A DNA stretch of 64,000 bases from an uncultured bacterium. Lineage in GTDB: Bacteria > Bacillota > Clostridia > Lachnospirales > Lachnospiraceae. A model generated the notes under the pieces. That model saw nothing but the letters and a program-made list of their open reading frames with translations. It ran no database searches and was not told the origin of the DNA. A program made the translations under genes and the position numbers. The stretch covers positions 1 through 64,000 of the forward strand of contig CANSYK010000010.1 of NCBI GenBank assembly GCA_947651225.1. The letters run 5' to 3'. Of this stretch, positions 588 through 23,285 are shown piece by piece. Position 1 is the stretch's first letter. Each line of letters begins with the position of its first letter.

Positions 588-880
588 TTATTATTGCTAA
601 GGCGGTTAAATACCGAACGAATTTCATGCAGAATAAAATATGCCAGTATGTTTGGAAATAGAGAAAGGGATAAGTAACATATATTGTATTGGACACAGGG
701 CAGATACAGGTAGTTTGCAACACAGCAAAGCCGTTTGTATCTGTTTTTTGTTTTATCCGGGGTTTTCTGATTTTGGCAGAGGAATTTGTTATAGGAGAAA
801 ATAAATGAATATTTTCCGTTCTGTACGCTTTGCGTACAGGCATGTGCTTTCAAAACTTTCAGATACATCACTGTTGAAAA

Positions 881-1225
881 TTGAATAGACTTTACACTCT
901 ACACCAAATCCGCTATAATAATTACAACATGTGGACAACGGAATTAACAAAAGGCGGTGATAACATGGAGGTGTTAGTAGATATGAATAATGGTGAAATT
1001 ATACAAAGAGGTATTGAAGATTTCAAAAATATTCAACGACATATGTTGATAGCAAAAGAAGAAAATGCCACAAAAACATATGCAAGCTTAAAGGATGATT
1101 ATATCTCTTTAAAAGCATTGTTAAACAGCCTTGGTGTTAACTTAACAGAGATTGACAAAATAAAAGAATAACAATACAACAACAGAATAACATATCACTC
1201 CTAAAAGAGTGTAAAGTCTATTCAA
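881..1225. mobile_element. Small cassette bounded by perfect 20-bp inverted repeats, carrying one small ORF
   Basis: TTGAATAGACTTTACACTCT at 881-900 is the exact reverse complement of AGAGTGTAAAGTCTATTCAA at 1206-1225. Confidence 0.6.
965..1171 (+). CDS. Small hypothetical protein (MEVLVDMNNGEIIQRGIEDFKNIQ...)
   Basis: ORF within 881-1171; AAAGGCGGTGATAAC RBS-like sequence before ATG at 965; enclosed by the 20-bp inverted repeats. Confidence 0.55.
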   Translation: MEVLVDMNNGEIIQRGIEDFKNIQRHMLIAKEENATKTYASLKDDYISLKALLNSLGVNLTEIDKIKE

Positions 1226-1427
1226 CTTATCAAGGACTTTGCACTTTTTTATTTTAGGAGGATACACCATAAAAGTAAATACTGAAAATAAGGACTTTTC
1301 AATATTTATGAAGGTTTGAGCTGTTATAACAAAAAGAAAAAAGCATAAAAAATTATTTTCGTGATGAAAATGAAGGTGTGGAGAATGAGGTAGTAACAAA
1401 GATTTTGAAAAATATGAAAAAACCCCC

Positions 1428-23035: not shown

Positions 23036-23285
23036 GTTTGCGTGTCCGAGTGGTTTATGGTGCCACCCTGCTAGAGCGTGTTTGAAAATTGCTTTTTGCA
23101 AGATGTGCTTCCCGCTTTGTGGGAGATTTGGCTCAAATTTAGGAGGTGTAGCGGGCTACATTGACTAAATTTGGGGCAAATATAGCGCAAAGTGGGGAGG
23201 GCAGATTGTGAGAATGAATTTTCAAACACGCTCTAAGGTGGTGTGCGGTAATACTGCACTGAAGGTTCGAATCCTTCCGCAAACG
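23036..23285 (+). tRNA. tRNA-Ser(GCU) gene interrupted in the anticodon loop by a MITE
   Basis: Exons 23036-23073 and 23236-23285 join to an 88-nt class II tRNA: acceptor GTTTGCG/CGCAAAC, anticodon arm CCACC-CTGCTAA-GGTGG, long variable arm TGTGCGGTAATACTGCACT, T arm GAAGG-TTCGAAT-CCTTC, discriminator G. Confidence 0.88.
23074..23235 (+). mobile_element. Intact 160-bp MITE-like palindromic element plus TA target duplication
   Basis: Ends GAGCGTGTTTGAAAATT / AATTTTCAAACACGCTC, flanked by TA on both sides; related copies at 18784-18929 and 43884-43944; interior forms near-complete hairpin. Confidence 0.88.

Follow-up and report, generated by a model that had tools for sequence, protein, structure and literature searches.

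The cassette upstream of the S10 operon

The window, the 64,000-nt stretch of DNA analyzed here, corresponds to contig C10 of a 4.38-Mb genome assembled in 167 contigs. Close to its left end, exact 20-bp inverted repeats at positions 881-900 and 1206-1225, which a repeat finder extends to 23 nt with 96% identity (878-900/1206-1228), enclose a single 68-aa ORF that is preceded by an RBS, just as the sequence-only reading had described. The sequence places the -35 box of an internal promoter, P2, within the left arm, and an intrinsic terminator at 1207-1250 takes its 5' half and its loop from the right arm. In this terminator the hairpin AGTGTAAAGTC...GACTTTGCACT is followed by T residues to 1250, and the whole reads AGTGTAAAGTC...GACTTTGCACTTTTTT. 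The unit is thus ordered, as read from its sequence, as promoter, gene, and terminator, and what its two ends have in common is a predicted -35 region and a predicted terminator stem and loop. Homology to other members of the family described below extends beyond the right arm, through the terminator and the next leader, to about position 1265. The features of the locus are collected in Table 1.

Table 1. Features of the cassette and its immediate surroundings in the window.
Feature	Position	Strand	Details
DDE_5 IS transposase gene fragment (the "interrupted" short frame)	805..873	+	homology stops at about 873
Left arm, TTGAAAATTGAATAGACTTTACACTCT	874..900	+	carries the -35 region of the internal promoter; repeat search and family alignment
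Internal promoter P2	891..919	+	TTTACA 891-896, 17-nt spacer, TATAAT 914-919; predicted from sequence
RBS, AAGGCGGTG	951-959		precedes the 68-aa ORF
Small ORF, 68 aa	965..1171 (ATG 965, stop 1171)	+	predicted two-helix hairpin
Right arm and intrinsic terminator, AGAGTGTAAAGTCTATTCAACTTATCAAGGACTTTGCACTTTTTT	1206..1250	+	repeat search; terminator in predicted P2-type RNA, including that of the window copy
Remnant of leader/RBS of a lost downstream gene, ATTTTAGGAGGATAC	1251..1265	+	matches the sequence before the DnaJ-like gene in locus L056
Repeat also found beside a tyrosine integrase	1278..1358	+	79% to G000:C129:2238-2319; 94% over 33 bp to G004:C118

Homology of related genomes to the S10 locus begins at ~1395-1408, just short of the promoter of that operon and of its leader, which at 1474-1563 is the sole Rfam match in the window (RF03136); these relatives lack positions 1 to about 1395. 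The sequence upstream of ~1395 is lineage-specific debris, and the cassette lies in this mobile debris next to the S10 region. Absence from the relatives, together with recurrence of the ends elsewhere, excludes a static, hairpin-bounded gene present as one copy at a conserved position. The short frame upstream of the left arm (MNIFRSVRF...LLKIE-stop) is present at 805-888, but it is not a target gene interrupted by the cassette, as had been supposed. Positions 806-873 are 88% identical to G008:C11:1147-1214, the parent ORF matches DDE_5 (PF13546, E=2.4e-11), and the 68-bp fragment abuts the left arm directly with no continuation to the right of the cassette. On the other side, the repeat at 1278-1358 looks like the end of an integrated element, and in the closest sister (L056, at G015:C151) the leader of a DnaJ-like gene matches window positions 1251-1265. 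Because an IS fragment is joined to its left arm, a repeat of the integrase-associated type lies nearby, and a DnaJ-type leader is left over, the window copy looks like a solitary remnant of a larger locus in mobile-element debris, and not like an insertion into the short frame.

Other repeated sequences lie farther to the left. A ~46-nt repeat at 592-637 has a single copy in its own genome but at least 15 copies in G008 and several in G025. Several relatives each have one segment with 73-86% similarity to positions 450-587, as does contig C13 of the same genome, and a 52-aa frame within these positions looks by eye like a small DUF1858-like gene that has been truncated.

A family of cassettes with common ends and different genes

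In the same genome, the same ends surround different small ORFs at C12:37.2 kb and C105:2.3 kb, and a relic is found on C59. Elsewhere, a degenerate arm pattern matched 15 IMG/VR stretches and 87 stretches of species-representative genomes, nearly all of them labelled Lachnospiraceae or Clostridia. These matches and the loci found earlier comprise 78 distinct paired cassettes, most of them 270-450 bp in length (the extraction table has 79 rows, including one overlapping artefact, c10_L150, which was excluded). The window copy is therefore a real member of a multi-copy cassette family of Lachnospiraceae gut bacteria, and the family is large; the libraries and the collection of papers searched apparently contain no description of it. 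Looking for the 20-bp ends with other contents, which had been suggested as a check, thus gave a positive answer both within the genome and beyond it, and, in line with the earlier idea of a mobile unit, the cassette occurs in many copies whose inverted ends are conserved, whose protein cargo varies, and which have no transposase.

Alignment of the family gave CCTTGATAATTGAATAGACTTTACACY as the left-arm consensus and CCTTRATAATTCAATAGACTTTACACY as the consensus of the reverse-complemented right arm, outward of which come the second half of the stem and then the U-tract; overall arm conservation is biased by the search, as the arms were collected by arm-based patterns. Downstream of the left arm, 70 of the 78 cassettes have a -10-like element. 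The -10-like sequence TGTGATAT is also enriched in antisense orientation within right arms (17/78 strong matches versus 2.7 in shuffles), which may mark a promoter in antisense or an operator of greater length.

The cassettes occur in three settings. In setting A (at least 24 cassettes), an ArdC-like, DnaJ-like, or MKNYCFEIK-type gene begins about 40 nt beyond the core of the right arm, with its RBS just past the U-tract and little room for a promoter of its own. The downstream ArdC matches ArdcN (PF08401, E=2e-29), PF18818, and an anti-restriction PHROG (E=1e-74); the match of the DnaJ-like gene to PF00226 is below the cut-off. With a broader frame search, 29 cassettes have an ArdC/DnaJ-type frame following the right arm, and 1 has such a frame running outward from its left arm. 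Of the 24 setting-A cassettes, 16 carry a -35/-10 pair upstream of the left arm, often with the -10 box covered by a dyad, and an exact TATAAT lies at -72..-37 in 14/76 cassettes compared to 3.4 in shuffles; matches resembling this upstream promoter, P1, also occur in many solo copies, which makes the promoter criterion a weak one. A small gene for a Cro-type (HTH_26) or RHH-like regulator is found no more than 700 nt upstream in 13/24, with Pfam matches of the RHH-like genes sub-threshold at best.

In setting B (n=8), the left arm is preceded, at a distance of about 40-60 nt, by the end of a hammerhead core whose stems are readable. The best Rfam match of this RNA, which resembles RAGATH-1 and other bacterial hammerhead ribozymes (RF03152; PMC3088659), is to RAGATH-1 with 31.5 bits and E=0.003, below the gathering threshold of 56.3, but its core, stems, and cleavage site are readable despite this score. 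These hammerhead-like ribozymes, of the form CUGANGAG...CGAAA...UC, lie upstream of cassettes L151, L152-L155, L160, L175, and L182, and another, also below the Rfam threshold, lies close to the cassette of L049 (5297-5343, minus strand). Hammerheads are known to flank ardA in Agrobacterium (PMC3088659). Unlike such hammerhead-linked loci, most cassettes lack a hammerhead, which was rejected as a defining part of the cassette as it is upstream of just 8/78 and missing from the window copy. Setting C (n=46) comprises solo or unclassified cassettes, a few of which are probably setting-A cassettes whose downstream gene was missed by the filter.

The two arms covary as the strands of an RNA duplex would

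Predicted folds depended on where the RNA began. In RNAs of the P1 type, the arms were paired and the terminator was absent in 65/69 cases, and in RNAs of the P2 type the terminator hairpin formed in 66/69, including the window copy, although an inverted repeat by its nature produces part of this split. As in attenuators, one leader RNA would hold mutually exclusive terminator and antiterminator structures, according to these folds and to the covariation that follows, both of them sequence-based. Across the family, 88.2% of arm cells paired in register compared to 28-45% when one arm was slid by 1-3 nt. Two-sided changes were found in 88 cells, compared to a shuffle maximum of 64; these are counts of cells and not of independent events, and are inflated by the relatedness of the cassettes. 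Each arm fit its own partner better than swapped partners within class A and within the solo class (0/2000 permutations each), and the small class with hammerheads showed no such excess when taken alone.

Almost all mismatches in the arm cores are G-U, and at pairs 18-25, summed from the pair table, 45 departures keep a G-U pair and 1 is a non-pair. Covariation continues at positions 26-29, beyond the terminator stem, with the exception of position 27; at pair 17 most departures give A-C, and 48/70 have a G-G mismatch at pair 11. One mismatch is systematic, with G in the left arm and C in the reverse complement of the right, and we infer that the left G keeps the left arm open, as a C at this position would permit self-folding (TTGA/TCAA). 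These sequence patterns support pairing of the left and right arms in RNAs that contain both. Many solo copies lack both P1 and a downstream gene and hence have no evident use for such pairing.

A proposed two-state RNA switch

An expression switch is the best reading of the repeats and would add a novel variation on attenuation in the leaders of mobile elements. Specifically, we think it probable that the family consists of cassettes with a promoter, a gene for a small helical protein, and a terminator, and that in Lachnospiraceae mobile elements the inverted ends act as an RNA switch with two states. P1, as predicted from sequence, would be a repressor-controlled promoter upstream of the left arm, and RNA initiated there would carry the left arm, or would alternatively be matured in this region by the hammerhead ribozyme in the 8 copies that have one. 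The left arm, the proposed antiterminator strand when transcribed from upstream, would then capture the 5' half of the terminator, allowing polymerase to read into the anti-restriction genes. RNA from P2 would terminate because its start lies downstream of the left arm, so that the terminator could form and the small protein alone would be produced. Choice of promoter would thereby set read-through, with P1 repressed in a resident element and active upon entry, when ArdC or DnaJ would be expressed. Such a switch would likely serve to silence establishment genes for as long as the element is resident and to turn them on at entry into a new cell, with the small protein always being made. In the window copy, P1 and the downstream gene are missing, and, judged by its sequence, this copy should make only the small protein, with transcription stopping before the S10 operon.

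A broader formulation, which we put forward tentatively, is that the transcription start itself encodes passage through the terminator. One 26-nt segment would serve both as the -35 region of a constitutive promoter and as the antiterminator of RNA from a repressed upstream promoter, and the protein encoded between the arms could be swapped, so that effectors would change without breaking the anti-restriction switch.

Exchange of contents and alternative explanations

Cassettes differ from their surroundings in a way that bears on how they move. The upstream flanks of L152 and L160 are 96% identical over 400 nt and the downstream flanks of L183 and L197 are 86% identical over 400 nt, and in both pairs the insides are unrelated; conversely, the insides of L230 and L238 are 98.8% identical over 257 nt and their flanks are unrelated. 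The switch between similar and unrelated sequence falls at the arms. These alignments show contents that have evidently been swapped at fixed sites and near-identical cassettes that sit in unrelated flanks. To put unlike insides into common flanks, recombination between homologous conserved ends is enough; this pattern requires no dedicated transposase, and none was found. Such arm-mediated exchange would also explain content swapping. A rival supposition is that the cassettes are MITEs with a protein cargo, non-autonomous transposable units whose arms are ends recognized in trans by a transposase or recombinase. We consider that explanation quite unlikely, even though terminal inverted repeats are present on multiple dispersed copies, several copies with different cargo occur per genome, one pair has nearly the same contents in unrelated flanks, and solo copies have similar left boundaries, six of them lying no more than 150 nt from a tRNA gene, compared to 1.5 expected. 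By eye, no target-site duplication was evident in the flanks of solo copies; joined-flank searches for two solo copies found no clean empty site, and for a solo copy close to a tRNA gene, a search with its flanks joined gave no match contiguous across the junction. An autonomous partner with the same ends was found neither in an arm scan of 10 genomes of the genus nor among arm pairs up to 1.5 kb apart. Moreover, conservation is confined to the part shared by left and right and does not extend to the outer half of the left hairpin, and ends acting as DNA would need neither the systematic G/C asymmetry nor deviations that favor G-U. The sequence-only proposal of a non-autonomous mobile unit is partly right, given the multiple copies, the variable cargo, and the mobile debris, but reading the repeats as transposon ends is not supported, as the arms are parts of a promoter and a terminator and covary like an RNA duplex. 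A separate MITE-like repeat of ~182 bp, with long ends CTAGAGCGTGTTTGAAAATT...AATTTTCAAACACGCTCTAG, is present at window 23071-23235 and in the left flank of L049, with about 20 or more copies in the same genome and many in G008, G004, and G007.

The pairing evidence would serve equally for an RNA processing stalk or protective panhandle, in which RNase III cuts the paired arms to free the small-gene mRNA from a polycistron, or the RNA is stabilized, and antitermination plays no part. A 26-bp long-range duplex around a gene resembles the processing stems of rRNA, and in some copies a hammerhead trims the 5' side too, but processing leaves unexplained the exact coincidence of the 3' arm with the 5' half of an intrinsic terminator, as well as the RBS-bearing genes that directly follow the U-tract; we regard it as unlikely. 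If the arms acted instead as DNA, as operators or as the borders of an invertible segment, the enrichment of TGTGATAT on the reverse strand of right arms could be understood, as similarity then partly reaches the promoter region. A strand-specific G-U bias is unexpected for duplex DNA, however, and no inverted copies were seen (29 cassettes with ArdC/DnaJ-type frames after the right arm, 1 after the left), which makes regulation at the DNA level very improbable. Structure in transferred single-stranded DNA, as a promoter or entry signal, has a precedent in the single-stranded promoters that control anti-restriction genes on F and ColIb-P9 (PMC8708921), and anti-restriction genes adjoin the cassettes; G-T mismatches, too, are tolerated in DNA. 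Here, by contrast, the -10 box lies outside the duplex, the loci that were read contain no relaxase or transfer gene, and several carriers are viral contigs in IMG/VR, and we consider this the least probable of the alternatives.

Relation to known systems

The closest known system is that of the EGeRS leaders of ardC genes in the pLS20 family (PMC8708921). EGeRS1 and EGeRS2 are conserved, multi-copy leaders that directly precede the RBS of ardC and of other establishment operons on pLS20-family plasmids; EGeRS2 is a promoter repressed by an RHH protein, and EGeRS1 contains long-range inverted repeats and blocks read-through from upstream promoters by an unknown mechanism (PMC8708921). Like EGeRS1, the cassettes have long-range inverted repeats and, in setting A, sit directly before the RBS of ArdC/DnaJ-type genes. 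Unlike the EGeRS leaders, they differ in sequence and host family, are 270-450 bp long, enclose a small protein-coding gene together with an internal promoter, and have clear pairing partners. How anti-restriction and establishment genes are kept silent until entry into a new cell is an open question for EGeRS1-type leaders (PMC8708921), and the cassette family offers a compact, widespread system with a specific base-pairing hypothesis.

In Tn916, passage through terminator T1 is controlled by the canT RNA antiterminator (PMC11658703), and the cassettes resemble canT, HK022 put, and pLS20 conAn in that a cis-acting RNA would govern terminator passage in a mobile element. In contrast to canT, which is processive and probably acts on RNA polymerase (PMC11658703), the cassette antiterminator would be local, pairing with one terminator. 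As in phage morons, a small accessory gene with its own promoter and terminator, as predicted from sequence, is swapped as a unit, but morons are not defined by common inverted ends or by conditional read-through into the next gene.

The small proteins

The cassettes encode several families of helical or coiled-coil proteins of 46 to about 190 aa, many of which start with MTD.ELL or MT.KEL. None scored above the cut-off in Pfam or NCBIfam, and matches in PHROGs and PADLOC were weak and generic; searches of GenBank phages and PLSDB plasmids with the two proteins and the DNA tried gave no match (for DNA against PLSDB, by distant blastn). Pairwise dN/dS values within the family of the window protein are mostly 0.04-0.3, indicating purifying selection. 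AlphaFold2 predicts a two-helix hairpin for the 68-aa window protein (pLDDT 88.6, pTM 0.73), and a structure search returned generic helical hairpins, including Rop, none with an E value below 0.001. An RNA-binding role like that of Rop would, on this modeled structure, be speculation. A large pool of unnamed small helical proteins is exchanged by cassette among gut mobile elements, beside anti-restriction genes, and these proteins are candidates for functions in host takeover or anti-defense.

Related ORFs also occur without arms. Among relatives selected by their ORF, most of them armless, complementarity between a locus's own upstream and downstream sequences exceeded that of swapped pairs overall (1/5000), an excess driven by a few loci. 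Paralogues of the window protein are encoded at G000:C3:94310, C18:17092, C39:4621, and C112:2684 and at many loci in G008 and G004, most of them without conserved arms, and several of these paralogues have a TAGACTTT promoter motif whose complement lies inside a differently built terminator.
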